32,844 bases of DNA from Desulfobulbaceae bacterium (GTDB lineage Bacteria; Desulfobacterota; Desulfobulbia; Desulfobulbales; VMSU01), in assembly GCA_015231515.1 (NCBI GenBank), contig JADGBM010000027.1, forward strand, positions 1 through 32,844, given 5' to 3'. The stretch's first letter is position 1, and the number at the start of each line of letters is the position of its first letter. Under the pieces are notes generated by a model. The model did no database searches. It was not told where the DNA came from and was given only the letters and a program-made list of their open reading frames with translations. The position numbers and the translations under genes are program-made. Shown here piece after piece: positions 12,964 to 22,333 of the stretch.

Positions 12964-15090
12964 TTAATAGCTCCAGCGCACTTCCGCCCAGACTGCCCGG
13001 CTCTCCATTGGGTAGTCATTGGTAATATAGGCCCCGTAAGCTCCGGCACCGGCAACATACGGGCTAGACTCCCGGATATCCTCGTTAAAGAGGTTCCGTA
13101 CCGCTAGGGCCAGATCCACACGGTCAAGGACATTGGTACGCCGCAGAGTCAGGTTGACAAGCTCATAATCTTCAATATCTGGCCGGGGATCGCCGCTGGC
13201 CCGGCGCCGACCGGCCACCCAGTAAAACTGGCTATCCAGAGACCAGTCATTGGCAAAGGTCCAATGGGGATTGACATACAATTGCTGGGAAGGGGCATCG
13301 TTGGTGAGCTCACCGGTTTGCCGATCCTTGGAGCGCTGAAAGGCGTAGTTACTGCTGACTCGTAAGCCCTCCGCTACCTGCCATTCGGCTTCCACCTCAA
13401 AACCTTGCCCCTCCTGGTCCTTATAATTCTGGGCCTGTAAGATGCCGGGCGTGGCCGGATCAGCGACATATTCAATCAGGCCGTCAATGGTGTAGGTAAA
13501 AAGGTTGAGCTTAGTGCTCAAGTTGGTGGTGGGCTGATAGTCAAAGGCCAACTCATAGGTGTCAATGGTCTCCGGTTTCAGGTTCGGATTCCCCTTTGCC
13601 TGAGCGTTGTTCTGGAAATACTGCTCGCCAAAACTTGGCGCCCGGTAGGCCCGGCCGTACATAAGCTTGGTGGTCAGGTCATAGCGGGTCTCCCAGACCA
13701 GAGCGGCCCTGGGATTGGTGGTGGAACCGAAATCGTCATAATAGTCATAACGCACCCCACCCGTCAGAGTCCATCGTCTGGCAAAGTTCCACTCATCCTG
13801 CACTGAGATATTCCAGAGTTTGCGGCCGTGGTCCTCCATAAAGTTATACGGCGTGTTCTTGATGTTAACCAGTGGTCCATACTGTACCGCTACGCCAGAG
13901 CCAAAGTTCTTAAACTGGTCCGTATCCGTGTCAAAAAACTTCCAGCCCAGAGAAACCCGCCAGAGATGATCGAGTAAGCCTTTATAAAGAGCAGTAGTCT
14001 CCAGGCCGGTGTACTTAGTTTCGGCAATAGGATTGCCCAACATATAGGCCGGATACGTTGGTGTGGTAAGCTCAAAAAAGTTATTGGATTTGTTGTAGAC
14101 CGAATACAGCCGTAGGCTCAGATCCAGATCGTCGCTGAAAAACTTCTTATCCCGATACTCCAGATCACCCATAAAACCGCGACTGTCATTTCCACTGTTA
14201 TAGGTAATCACCTGCGTGGCACCGGGTCCCATACCGGCATTTTCTTGCCAGTAACCATAGAGCTTCAGGCTGAAGTTGTCTTTACGCAAGCCCCAATGGG
14301 TGGTCACCAGATCATACTCGGTATCCAGATGACCGGGGGTGTTGGAAAAGGCGGAAGCCCCGATGGCGTCGAGATAGTCACGACCTACCACCCGGTTGTT
14401 GTCGCCGCTGGTCTTCTGGGTCTCCACACTGCCGTAAAGATCCCAGCCGGCGTAAATGCCGCCGTGCTGGAGCCAGAGATCCGAGGTGTTAAAAGAGCCA
14501 TAGCGCATCCCGGCCTTAGTGCCGTCGATTTCAATGCCGTCCTTGGTAATCACGTTCACCGTGCCGGCAAAGGCGTCCGCCCCATGTACGGCCGAGCCCG
14601 GCCCCCGCACCACCTCGACCCGGGAGATCATGGCCACTGGCATGTGAAAAAGATAGGGACGGGTTCCTGTAATTGTTTCACTCAAAGGAATGCCATTGAT
14701 CAGCAGAAGGACCTGGGGGTTGACACTGGTATGGATGCCGCGGACCGACCAGATGGAAGACATGTAGGCGGAATTGGAGGGGGCGACATGCAGGCCGGGC
14801 ACGGTCTCCAGGATCTCATCCAAGGTGGTGGCCCCGATCTCTTCAATATCCTCCTTACTGATCACCGAGGCAACCGAAGGGGCCAAATGCACAGGGATCT
14901 GGGAGCCAGTGGCGGAAACCAGCAAGCGGTCGGCCCGATAGACATCCTCCTCTTGGGGACCACTGCCAAAGATCTTTTCAAAGGCGGAAATCTCTTCCGG
15001 GGAAACAGCTGACTGGTTGGATTTGGCTCCTGCAACCATTGGATAACTCCCTAATAAGATAGCCGCAGTCATGAGTAGTGCTTTTTTCAT
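12964..15090 (-). CDS. TonB-dependent outer-membrane receptor
   Basis: 708 residues from ATG 15090, which follows GAGGAGAGAAAT; the frame extends five codons further but without a better site. Residues 1-22 form a signal peptide ending in VAGA. The plug domain (about 45-165) has the SVISKEDIEEIG, LDEILETVPGL, RGI, VEVVRGPGSA and NVITKDG family motifs. The remainder is a 22-strand-type barrel with repeated aromatic strand ends and a C-terminal ...RWSY terminal strand. This type imports siderophores, haem, cobalamin or other scarce ligands using TonB energy. It leads an operon with two citrate-synthase-like genes and an SDR remnant, so a link to a carboxylate ligand or siderophore is possible but unproven. 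No TonB/ExbBD or ABC genes are near. Confidence 0.92.
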   Translation of the reverse strand: MKKALLMTAAILLGSYPMVAGAKSNQSAVSPEEISAFEKIFGSGPQEEDVYRADRLLVSATGSQIPVHLAPSVASVISKEDIEEIGATTLDEILETVPGLHVAPSNSAYMSSIWSVRGIHTSVNPQVLLLINGIPLSETITGTRPYLFHMPVAMISRVEVVRGPGSAVHGADAFAGTVNVITKDGIEIDGTKAGMRYGSFNTSDLWLQHGGIYAGWDLYGSVETQKTSGDNNRVVGRDYLDAIGASAFSNTPGHLDTEYDLVTTHWGLRKDNFSLKLYGYWQENAGMGPGATQVITYNSGNDSRGFMGDLEYRDKKFFSDDLDLSLRLYSVYNKSNNFFELTTPTYPAYMLGNPIAETKYTGLETTALYKGLLDHLWRVSLGWKFFDTDTDQFKNFGSGVAVQYGPLVNIKNTPYNFMEDHGRKLWNISVQDEWNFARRWTLTGGVRYDYYDDFGSTTNPRAALVWETRYDLTTKLMYGRAYRAPSFGEQYFQNNAQAKGNPNLKPETIDTYELAFDYQPTTNLSTKLNLFTYTIDGLIEYVADPATPGILQAQNYKDQEGQGFEVEAEWQVAEGLRVSSNYAFQRSKDRQTGELTNDAPSQQLYVNPHWTFANDWSLDSQFYWVAGRRRASGDPRPDIEDYELVNLTLRRTNVLDRVDLALAVRNLFNEDIRESSPYVAGAGAYGAYITNDYPMESRAVWAEVRWSY

Positions 15091-15203
15091 TATTTCTCTC
15101 CTCAATTGCTGTTGAGTAGGTCCGACTTTTACTGGGGGGTGAGCAAATTCAAATTTACAGGAAGAGAGGTCCCGGTATTTCAGATAGTCAAGTCATCTCC
15201 ACC

Positions 15204-19725: not shown

Positions 19726-20781
19726 TTAATTTTGAACTTTTTTCCACTGTTCAAGTTTTTCATGGGCAGCACCACTTTCTATGGCAGCTTTGCTTTTTAT
19801 AACACCGTCTTTGATAGAGTCACAAATCCCTGTGATATATAAGATTGCCCCGGCATTTAAACAGGTAAAATCAATACAGGCTGTTGGGCCATTACCCGCT
19901 ATAACGCTGACAAACCGATCTGCCTCGGTCTTGAGATCGTTAGTAGCCGATATCTCATGAAAACTGACACGTTTAACTCCTACTTCTTCTGGTGTTATAC
20001 GATACTCTTTTATTGTCTCACCTTGAAACTCAACCACCATTGTTGCCCCGCACAGCGAAATCTCATCCATGCCATCCCCGGACGCATCATCCAAACCATG
20101 CACCACCATTCCTCGTGTATAGCCGATTTGTGACATTACCTGGGCGCTTGGCATAAGCAGCTTCTCGTTACCAACACCCCTCAACCCAATTGTCGGTCGG
20201 CATGGATTTGCCAGTGAGGCGGCAATATTCAATGTGGAACCAAAGCGGATCTGGCTTAAAATACGACCGAGAGCACCAGGATGAATATGGGGACTCATGC
20301 CATTAAAGAGGCCAATACCCGTCTCTTTGATACTCTTTTCAACCGTGGCGATGTCGCACTCAACATTAACCCCAACAGCCTCCATTATATCAACCGTACC
20401 GCAAAACGATGAAAGGGCCCTGGCACCATGCCTGGCCATTGTTACACCACAAGATGCCGCAACAATGGCCGCAGCGCTACTGACATTGAATGTTGATAGT
20501 TTATCCATTCCCGTGCCGGAATTTTCAACGATCGGGCCTCGAATAGTGCCGGACACATGCACCGTATCAAACTGGTCGATGGCCTCCCAGGCACCCGCGA
20601 TTTCATGGACGGTTTCTCCTTTAGCCACGAGTGCCCCTAAAAAAGCGCCTTGCTGTAAATCTGGTTGTTCGTTGAGCATAACCTCACGGAACATTTCGTA
20701 GGTTTCACTGCGGCAGAGATCCTCACCTCGAATTAACTGTTGAATCTGTCCACCAAATTTTTGAATAGCATCATTGTTCAT
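19726..20781 (-). CDS. Anthranilate-phosphoribosyltransferase-like (TrpD family) protein
   Basis: A 351-residue protein of the nucleoside phosphorylase/TrpD fold. The N-terminal helical domain (about 1-70) is followed by the PRPP region GTGMDKLSTFN (89-99), where TrpD has GTGGD; RHGARALSS (117-125), where TrpD has KHGNRSVSS; MSPHIHPG (162-169); and SLANPCRP (189-196). So the fold and PRPP site seem kept but several substrate residues differ. No other trp genes are near. It starts 29 bases after the zinc-dehydrogenase gene, in the operon behind a cobalamin riboswitch. A role in tryptophan synthesis is therefore unlikely. I infer a phosphoribosyl transfer in a B12-related or B12-replacing pathway, possibly lower-ligand chemistry. 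That is a hypothesis. Confidence 0.8.
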   Translation of the reverse strand: MNNDAIQKFGGQIQQLIRGEDLCRSETYEMFREVMLNEQPDLQQGAFLGALVAKGETVHEIAGAWEAIDQFDTVHVSGTIRGPIVENSGTGMDKLSTFNVSSAAAIVAASCGVTMARHGARALSSFCGTVDIMEAVGVNVECDIATVEKSIKETGIGLFNGMSPHIHPGALGRILSQIRFGSTLNIAASLANPCRPTIGLRGVGNEKLLMPSAQVMSQIGYTRGMVVHGLDDASGDGMDEISLCGATMVVEFQGETIKEYRITPEEVGVKRVSFHEISATNDLKTEADRFVSVIAGNGPTACIDFTCLNAGAILYITGICDSIKDGVIKSKAAIESGAAHEKLEQWKKVQN

Positions 20782-20810
20782 AGGATGTCCTTCCCTCTTT
20801 ATTTTAAATT

Positions 20811-21797
20811 TTAAACACCTGAATCCAGGGTATATAAAAGAACCTTCATGCTGATTTTTTCGGAAACCAGGCGAAGGGCATCCTTGAGCTCCCAGAGCGG
20901 CATTCGGTGTGAGACCATATCGTCAACCTGTATTCGACCATCGGATAATAAAGCTAACGCTTCAACACCGTGCCGGAAGCTGCAGCCATAGGCACCAACA
21001 AGCGTTTGCTCCAGGTAGTGCAATGTATTGAAATCTATAGGCAGGGCACAATCATCCTTAGGCAATCCCGAAAAAACAACCAGTCGCCCCCGCGGTTTAA
21101 GGTGGCCAAGCGCATCCTGGTAAGCGCCCTTATCCCCAACAGCAATGATGCAGACATCATACATCTGATCAGTCAGAGCTGGGGAAAGCTCTTTTGAAAA
21201 CGCGCGTCGTTTTGGATGTGGTTCAATCAGTGTTGCTTCCGCGCCTTTTGCCAGGGCTGCCCGTGACAATAATACTCCAGCTGGCCCACCACCCCAGATA
21301 CCGATAGTTTCGCCTTCTGTCAGACGGGCAAGCTCAAGAGCGTTCAAACAGCATGACAGTGGTTCAGCAAAGACTGCTTGATCGGGTGTTAAATTATCAG
21401 GGACAAGAATCAGGCTTTGCACCGGGGCAACGACATACTCAGCAAAACCACCATCCCGATGAAAACCCATTATCTGCATGCTTTTGCACAGATTTCCAGC
21501 ACCAACAAGACATAGAGGGCACTGTCCACAACTTGTTCCCGGATAGACGTAGACGCGCTGGCCCTCCTTAAAGTTATGTACACCGTCACCAACACCACAA
21601 ATGCTCCCCACCACCTCTTCTCCTGGAATACGCGGCATAACCAGATCGCGATGACCGACTTCAATAATCTTCAGATCAGTCCGGCATAAGCCCGTAACCT
21701 CAACTTTAATCAAAACCTCATCAAATCCCGGTTGAGGAAGATCAAGTGTGCAAACCTCAAAGGAACCGATCTCCTTAACCACAATTGCTTTCATCAT
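20811..21797 (-). CDS. Zinc-dependent medium-chain alcohol dehydrogenase family protein
   Basis: A 328-residue MDR enzyme. Catalytic zinc candidates are Cys38 (GLCRTD) and Glu61 with Glu145 (FAEP). The usual GHE is GEE here, so the zinc-binding His is replaced by Glu60. Structural zinc cysteines are Cys90, 93, 96 and 104. The nucleotide loop is GIWGGGPAG (166-174). It is somewhat short for the family (340-360), with a compact cofactor domain. The start at ATG 21797 follows AAGGGG; ATG 21794 is equally possible. It is the first gene after the cobalamin riboswitch terminator, so its expression should drop when cobalamin is plentiful. Its substrate is unknown; polyol or amino-alcohol substrates are usual for this group. 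Confidence 0.85.
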   Translation of the reverse strand: MMKAIVVKEIGSFEVCTLDLPQPGFDEVLIKVEVTGLCRTDLKIIEVGHRDLVMPRIPGEEVVGSICGVGDGVHNFKEGQRVYVYPGTSCGQCPLCLVGAGNLCKSMQIMGFHRDGGFAEYVVAPVQSLILVPDNLTPDQAVFAEPLSCCLNALELARLTEGETIGIWGGGPAGVLLSRAALAKGAEATLIEPHPKRRAFSKELSPALTDQMYDVCIIAVGDKGAYQDALGHLKPRGRLVVFSGLPKDDCALPIDFNTLHYLEQTLVGAYGCSFRHGVEALALLSDGRIQVDDMVSHRMPLWELKDALRLVSEKISMKVLLYTLDSGV

Positions 21798-21825
21798 TGG
21801 TCACCCCTTGTCAGGTAATAGCAGT

Positions 21826-21872
21826 AAAAAAAAAGGGTTTCAATGGACGCAACTCGTCCATTGAAACCCTTT
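21826..21872 (-). terminator. Riboswitch-linked intrinsic terminator
   Basis: On the minus strand a perfect 18-bp stem (21832-21849 with 21855-21872) with a 5-base loop is followed by a T run (plus-strand A run starting at 21826). It lies between the cobalamin aptamer and the dehydrogenase start codon, so it is the likely expression platform: ligand binding favours termination. Confidence 0.9.
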
Positions 21873-21892
21873 ACCATTAGATTCAATCAAAA

Positions 21893-22065
21893 AAATTCCA
21901 GCAGGTCTTCTGGCTCTCCTGCCCTCCCAACGGCCTTCCCATTCTGTTTTTAACAGAACAGTGGCGCACAGGGTTGAAAGGGGGTTCCTTTACAAGTAAA
22001 GGCAGGATTACAGCGGCGGGACCGCCACGGATTCTAACCGTGTTCCGGGATACTGAAAGGTCAAA
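21893..22065 (-). ncRNA. Cobalamin riboswitch
   Basis: Reading the minus strand, the conserved blocks appear in order. There is a GGTTAGAATCC-type block with GCGGTCCCGCCGCTGTAA, a GCGCCACTG block, a GGGAAGGC block and the closing B12-box-like GCCAGAAGACCTGC. Spacing and order match the cobalamin (AdoCbl) riboswitch family. The strong terminator 21 bases downstream and the dehydrogenase gene behind it show which operon it controls. The aptamer points away from the rubredoxin gene. Confidence 0.93.
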
Positions 22066-22174: not shown

Positions 22175-22333
22175 ATGGAAAAATATGTGTGCAGCGTCTG
22201 CGGCTATACCTATAACCCTGCCGATGGTGACCCTGATACCGGTGTTAAAGCTGGCACAGCTTTTAAAGATTTGCCTGAAGACTGGGTTTGTCCTGATTGT
22301 GGTGCTGGCCTTGACGCTTTTGAAAAAGTGTGA
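22175..22333 (+). CDS. Rubredoxin
   Basis: 52 residues with the four iron-binding cysteines Cys6, Cys9, Cys39 and Cys42 (CSVCGY and CPDCGA), and the conserved Y-x-Y-x-P-x-x-GDPD-x-G and F-x-x-LP-x-x-W-x-CP signatures. The ATG at 22175 has AAAGGAGGT eight bases upstream, which rules out a longer frame from 22124. It is a cytoplasmic one-electron carrier, used in anaerobes for oxygen and superoxide reduction. The gene stands alone between the riboswitch (pointing away) and a convergent hypothetical gene. Confidence 0.95.

Follow-up and report, generated by a model that had tools for sequence, protein, structure and literature searches.

In a stretch of 32,844 nucleotides from a Desulfobulbaceae bacterium (GenBank assembly GCA_015231515.1, contig JADGBM010000027.1, positions 1 to 32,844 of the forward strand; hereafter the window), a cobalamin riboswitch precedes two genes, one encoding a zinc-type medium-chain dehydrogenase (ADH) and the other a paralogue of the phosphoribosyltransferase TrpD (TrpDL). 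The riboswitch-linked ADH-TrpDL pair is a conserved module, and we think it probable, on balance, that it serves cobamide synthesis by providing CobT with the lower-ligand base in an oxygen-independent way, alternative to BzaF/BzaAB and BluB. An earlier note, made from the letters of the window, had suggested that the pair may make or activate some part of a cobamide, for instance a lower ligand. This suggestion is well supported by genome context, namely, by fusion to and adjacency with CobT, by the replacement of bzaF in the same operon, by the mutual exclusion of the two within one genus, and by riboswitch control across phyla.

A conserved riboswitch-linked gene pair

All elements of the locus lie on the minus strand of the window. 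The riboswitch aptamer (RF00174; 21883-22072) was matched by cmscan over its full length (model positions 1-189) with 62.6 bits, against a gathering threshold of 31.5 (E = 2.1e-13). Between the aptamer and ADH, pattern scanning and folding revealed a terminator-like element (21832-21872) of 18 pairs with a 5-nt loop and a T run, presumably the expression platform of the riboswitch, and the fold of the leader beats 200 of 200 dinucleotide shuffles (z = -4.59). The complete aptamer and 18-bp terminator described in the earlier note were thus borne out, and the motifs it had singled out, GTGMD and RHGAR in TrpDL and GEE in ADH, are present as claimed. ADH (20811-21797; 328 aa; Pfam ADH_N and ADH_zinc_N), a polyol/threonine dehydrogenase-like protein by profile and fold, is followed after a gap of 29 bp by TrpDL (19726-20781; 351 aa; Pfam Glycos_transf_3), a putative phosphoribosyl pyrophosphate (PRPP)-dependent phosphoribosyltransferase assigned by its fold, clade and motifs. 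From the layout of the RNA, plentiful cobamide would be bound by the aptamer, with the terminator halting transcription, and both genes would be made when cobamide is scarce. The host assembly, a 3.4-Mb draft of 225 contigs that is 95% complete, contains five cobalamin riboswitches including this one, the other four heading a cbiK-like gene, the cluster cobC-cobU-cobT-cobS-cobD/cbiP-cbiB, btuCDF-like genes with cbiA, and a bzaF-like gene.

A TrpDL alignment, scanned against 85,000 species genomes, gave 323 confirmed relatives, and all locus counts refer to the best 80 of these 323 (53 bacterial and 27 archaeal loci, picked by TrpDL alone). ADH adjoins TrpDL in 78 of the 80, the remaining two TrpDLs ending less than 100 bases from a contig edge; as only TrpDL served as the query, the choice of loci did not favour this adjacency. 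The bacterial loci belong to Desulfobacterota, Geobacterales, Nitrospirota, Kiritimatiellota, Verrucomicrobiota, Actinomycetota, Firmicutes, Chloroflexota, Aquificota and Spirochaetota, and the archaeal ones to Methanomassiliicoccales, ANME-1, Methanosarcinales, Methanothrix and Methanomicrobiales. TrpD-like genes behind cobalamin riboswitches in other genomes, which the earlier note had suggested looking for, proved to be common: an nhmmer profile of 11 cobalamin riboswitches placed a riboswitch directly ahead of the first gene at at least 37 of the 53 bacterial loci (one of the 37, L071, being on the same contig as a training sequence), with just four other matches in 1.06 Mb. This census is a lower bound, because cmscan finds riboswitches that nhmmer missed (L256 and L260). 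At the 27 archaeal loci, the same profile had no match ahead of the pair.

Replacement of bzaF and linkage to cobamide genes

The best clue to function is found in the genus of Trichlorobacter thiogenes, in which ADH-TrpDL takes the place of bzaF. One genome of this genus (G306, L254) has the operon riboswitch-bzaF-cbiZ-btuB-btuF-btuC-btuD, and two others (G266, L256, and G267, L260) have riboswitch-ADH-TrpDL-cbiZ-btuB-btuF-btuC-btuD; the gene order of L256 and L260 is found again in G271 (L257), with ADH-TrpDL heading the cbiZ-btu operon. Among 15 genomes of the genus, TrpDL only was found in six, BzaF only in five, neither in four and both in none (Fisher test, p = 0.044 for all 15 genomes and p = 0.002 for the 11 with either gene, both from small counts of related genomes that are not independent). 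T. thiogenes itself has TrpDL, with no BzaF found. BzaF from this genus and BzaF from Desulfobulbales group together in a single clade, with 63 to 70% mutual identity and 43 to 48% identity to ThiC. Of 46 further TrpDL genomes from outside Desulfobulbales, most contain a single ThiC homologue, and none of the homologues placed in the tree fell in the BzaF clade, while BluB passed the cut-off in only 1 of 35 TrpDL genomes, leaving 34 without it. Since no ThiC homologue of the BzaF clade was found there and BluB is rare, many TrpDL organisms have the pair as the one candidate for a lower-ligand module that was found in them.

The pair is also linked physically to CobT. Desulfobulbales relatives have, as the second gene, one of about 700 aa that encodes ADH fused to CobT (TIGR03160, 426 bits), and an ADH-CobT fusion is present at L138 and L141 as well. 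In 17 of the 80 loci, two of which are fusions, a CobT of the bacterial type or of the archaeal type TIGR00303 is encoded on the same strand no more than 4 kb away, and the catalytic GEG[TS]GA motif is kept in fused and adjacent CobTs alike. Other neighbours are cobU-cobT-cobS (L070 and L074), cobD-cbiB (L104), hem and cbi genes (L076), cobD/cbiP, CbiZ-BtuB-BtuFCD (L079, L080 and L085) and BtuFCD (L127 and L136). The earlier note had also considered that the two genes might form a B12-independent bypass, which would be induced when cobalamin is short, as in the logic of MetE. Cobalamin riboswitches do govern B12-independent isoenzymes as well (for examples, see PMC8620254), but the neighbours of the pair are genes of cobamide assembly, uptake and remodelling, and its fusion partner is itself a cobamide assembly enzyme, so that a bypass is not supported and appears highly improbable.

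The same neighbourhoods bear on the most serious rival, salvage, in which the pair would recover or convert a base or riboside of the lower ligand, obtained externally or from cobamides undergoing remodelling; it might, for instance, release a base for CobT once CbiZ has cut an imported cobamide. Such a role is consistent with the operons in which the pair is joined by CbiZ and BtuBFCD (Trichlorobacter) or by BtuFCD (Aquificota). However, many loci lack CbiZ and uptake genes and have instead cobU-cobT-cobS or cobD-cbiB (L070, L074 and L104) or hem/cbi genes (L076), and the strict positional swap with BzaF, a synthase, favours synthesis. We regard salvage as rather unlikely, and supply of the base by synthesis as the better reading of the pair.

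Further genes were seen beside the pair. In Aquificota, a small radical S-adenosylmethionine (SAM) protein is encoded between ADH and BtuFCD (L127, 2671-3390; L136, 4043-4762) and could be a further pathway step. In Methanomassiliicoccales, a gene for a ferredoxin-type 4Fe-4S protein (cluster c8) repeatedly stands ahead of ADH-TrpDL (L108, 1431-2183, and others). In ANME-1/Methanosarcinales, a divergent gene (cluster c20; L103, 5932-7014, minus strand) beside CobT-TrpDL-ADH encodes a ribbon-helix-helix domain and a weakly AIR-synthase-like domain.

TrpDL and ADH as enzymes and their possible chemistry

TrpDL scored 251.8 bits against TIGR01245, and because this exceeds the cut-off of 199.05, automatic annotation names it TrpD. 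This score, and the finding of TrpB but of no other TrpD in the host assembly, would be explained if TrpDL were the host's ordinary tryptophan-pathway TrpD under odd control. However, the host assembly is a draft in 225 contigs, and a separate true TrpD of about 400 bits occurs beside TrpDL in 18 of 20 TrpDL genomes, including the single-contig genomes G078, G083, G129 and G130; true TrpD was not found in the host draft or in G018, which draft gaps may explain. Across 27 genomes the TIGR01245 scores are bimodal, with true TrpDs at 389 to 419 bits and TrpDLs at 240 to 270 bits, one more match being a partial gene.

The residues for PRPP and Mg are kept in TrpDL (GTGxD, N99, S101 and D239-E240, invariant in 40 of 40). 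GTGMD and [KR]HG[AS]R are found in 93 of 98 TrpD-like rows, whereas GTGGD and KHGNR are found in 15 of 15 canonical TrpDs, and conservation of the changes throughout the family shows that they do not stem from sequencing noise. The Asn of KHGN is replaced by Ala or Ser in all 40 TrpDLs, and the Arg of the PRR segment of true TrpD has no counterpart, being aligned to a gap or to Leu; we take both to be anthranilate-binding residues in true TrpD. At the site of the anthranilate pocket, TrpDL displays a differently conserved set of residues, namely, F159-N-G-M-S163, H167, R173, L175 and A/G188-S-L-A191. Its predicted structure (pLDDT 92.5) has a TM score of 0.88 to the TrpD structure 1kgz_B, and in the tree all TrpDLs are set apart from true TrpD by a very long branch, forming a deep clade of their own. 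No trp genes occur among the neighbours at the loci examined, where TrpDL lies outside any trp operon. Judged by these sequence features, TrpDL is distinct from the TrpD of the tryptophan pathway; the separate true TrpDs and the lost anthranilate residues led us to reject an ordinary TrpD under odd control, to which we give a very slim chance.

Several observations concern TrpD-like genes more widely. A second, remoter TrpD-like subfamily (GTGSD and KKGAR; about 35% identity to the window TrpDL) also adjoins ADH (L060, 6457-7515; L061, 5374-6432), and at L061 the operon reads cobS-cobD/cbiP-cbiB-ADH-TrpDL, followed by a gene for a Gate-domain membrane protein. Plasmids scanned for TrpDL gave only matches at the level of ordinary TrpD. 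The host trp cluster (contig C97; L044, 2921-7243, minus strand) comprises a trpE-like gene, a gene for a DUF559 protein, trpB and trpA, with no trpD nearby.

Because the PRPP/Mg residues are kept and the acceptor pocket is remodelled and invariant, TrpDL would be expected to move phosphoribose from PRPP onto an acceptor other than anthranilate. One way of using such an activity lies on the phosphoribosyl side of base attachment, where the pair would make an alternative donor for CobT or recycle the nicotinate freed from nicotinate mononucleotide (NaMN), and so help to attach the base, not make it. The CobT fusion and the retention of the PRPP/Mg residues are compatible with this, as is the fact that nicotinate, like anthranilate, is an aromatic acid. 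Nevertheless, it leaves the constant presence of the dehydrogenase and the replacement of bzaF unaccounted for, and a carboxylate acceptor is less likely because the equivalents of the anthranilate-binding Asn and Arg are lost; we consider this role decidedly unlikely.

ADH was placed by profile and fold in the polyol/threonine dehydrogenase branch of the zinc medium-chain dehydrogenases. Its four structural-zinc cysteines, Cys38, Glu61 and Glu145 are invariant among 35 relatives, and residue 60 of the catalytic zinc site is Glu in 22 of the 35, that of the window included, and His in 13. The replacement of GHE by GEE to which the earlier note had drawn attention is therefore real, but, being a stable trait of one ADH clade, it is not by itself a mark of a dead enzyme. 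As a member of a family oxidizing sugars and polyols, ADH may act on the sugar of the TrpDL product or prepare the TrpDL acceptor, and CobT would then attach the resulting base.

For synthesis of the base by the pair, the chemistry that we prefer is weakly supported and argued by analogy: the acceptor would be an aromatic amine, and ADH would oxidize the added sugar so that C1 of the sugar becomes C2 of the imidazole. In the BluB reaction, C2 of the benzimidazole derives from C1' of the ribityl chain, and the formation of indole via TrpD, TrpF and TrpC offers a parallel to a benzimidazole C2 taken from C1 of ribose. We tentatively raise the possibility, which we consider less likely than not, that the pair represents a third lower-ligand route, independent of oxygen, common to bacteria and archaea and unrelated to BluB and the ThiC-like Bza enzymes, in which phosphoribosylation of an aromatic amine and conversion of a sugar carbon into the imidazole carbon would lead to a benzimidazole in a manner resembling the indole pathway. 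If true, this chemistry would mean new PRPP-transfer enzymology and the non-homologous replacement of a radical enzyme.

Some points weigh against the supply of a lower-ligand base by the pair. TrpD enzymes yield beta-N-ribosides, whereas cobamides require the alpha configuration, and TrpDL can therefore not simply replace CobT. The origin of the putative TrpDL acceptor is left unexplained, and among cultured organisms with TrpDL we found none whose cobamide has been measured. The absence of BzaF comes in part from draft genomes, G311 and G314 being incomplete and also without a full ThiC. Finally, TrpDL and BzaF usually coexist in Desulfobulbales, so that their exclusion is not general, and this coexistence would also agree with the pair serving another base or acting alongside BzaF.

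The cobamide of a named species was also considered. Trichlorobacter lovleyi makes a cobamide with 5,6-dimethylbenzimidazole (DMB) as its base (PMC13390470), and an attempt to link this to TrpDL failed: in the genome with plasmid pSZ77 (PMC3403914), BzaF is encoded by the plasmid itself and TrpDL is absent, so that DMB in this species is uninformative on TrpDL.

Most of the Desulfobulbales genomes that carry the fusion have a second, unfused CobT, and two parallel CobT-linked modules in this order would fit two bases or two conditions. The host also has a bzaF copy (contig C124; L010, 5444-6438, minus strand) behind a separate riboswitch. In the assembly this gene is disrupted: approximately 36 codons at its start are out of frame with the rest, and the product lacks about 100 residues of its centre (147-248). 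Relatives have intact copies, and either loss of the gene's function, as a pseudogene, or an error of assembly may be the cause. No BzaF was found in G247 and G248, the closest TrpDL relatives of the host. Given the disrupted bzaF and the lack of BzaF in these two genomes, the host may rely on ADH-TrpDL. In genus g22 of Desulfobulbales, the genomes G064, G065 and G066 have three or four CobT copies each, one of them fused to ADH in all three, and in G064 and G066 one copy adjoins bzaF.

Elsewhere in the window, a small rubredoxin-like open reading frame (22176-22300, plus strand) lies opposite in strand to the riboswitch, with its start some 100 bases away, and a TonB-dependent receptor gene (12964-15105, minus strand) without a riboswitch ahead of it is followed by two short open reading frames, the first of them weakly citrate-synthase-like.

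Significance and relation to known systems

The earlier note had placed neither gene among the standard ones for cobalamin transport or synthesis, which is correct, and had known of no described system of this make-up, and none turned up in the literature: in the openly licensed papers searched, we found no published TrpD-like/ADH cobamide module, an account elsewhere being possible. What comes closest is the legend of a figure that names trpD, DH and SPE, with no comment, for a cobalamin region in Candidatus Chlorobium antarcticum (PMC8620254), and a mention of trpD in PMC12452182 relates to T-boxes. The ADH-TrpDL module is real, widespread and apparently undescribed. Of the predicted cobamide producers in a survey covering 11,000 bacterial species, 42% lacked all known genes for benzimidazole synthesis or phenolic attachment (PMC6461909), so that the cobamide type of many anaerobes is not known. 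The pair provides a two-gene marker and a candidate for part of this gap. Its hosts include methanogens, ANME-1 archaea, sulfate reducers and relatives of dechlorinators, among which the type of cobamide decides who lives on whose B12.

The known lower-ligand routes are BluB and BzaF/BzaAB(CDE), and phenolic bases are attached by ArsAB. BzaF/BzaAB, the 5-hydroxybenzimidazole synthase, resembles the proposed module in that BzaF feeds a lower-ligand base to CobT in anaerobes, can stand behind a cobalamin riboswitch and occupies the same operon position in Trichlorobacter. It has no homology to the pair, however, belonging to different Pfam and NCBIfam families: BzaF is a ThiC-like radical SAM enzyme that performs radical chemistry on aminoimidazole ribotide, whereas the pair consists of a PRPP transferase and a dehydrogenase. 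BluB, the DMB synthase, would share with the pair the supply of a base, which for the pair is a proposed role, but it is likewise not homologous and needs O2 and a flavin. CobT and ArsAB, which activate the lower ligand, represent a linked step, CobT being fused to or adjoining the pair; TrpDL, by contrast, is no CobT homologue, and TrpDL genomes retain a normal CobT. With TrpD, the anthranilate phosphoribosyltransferase, TrpDL shares the fold and the PRPP/Mg residues and differs in its GTGMD and [KR]HG[AS]R motifs, its own clade, the lack of the anthranilate-binding Arg and its place outside trp operons. ADH, in turn, has the fold, Cys38, Glu61, Glu145 and the four structural-zinc cysteines of the polyol-type zinc dehydrogenases (sorbitol, threonine and galactitol-1-phosphate dehydrogenases), but in the clade of the window the zinc-site His60 is Glu, and some of its relatives are fused to CobT.

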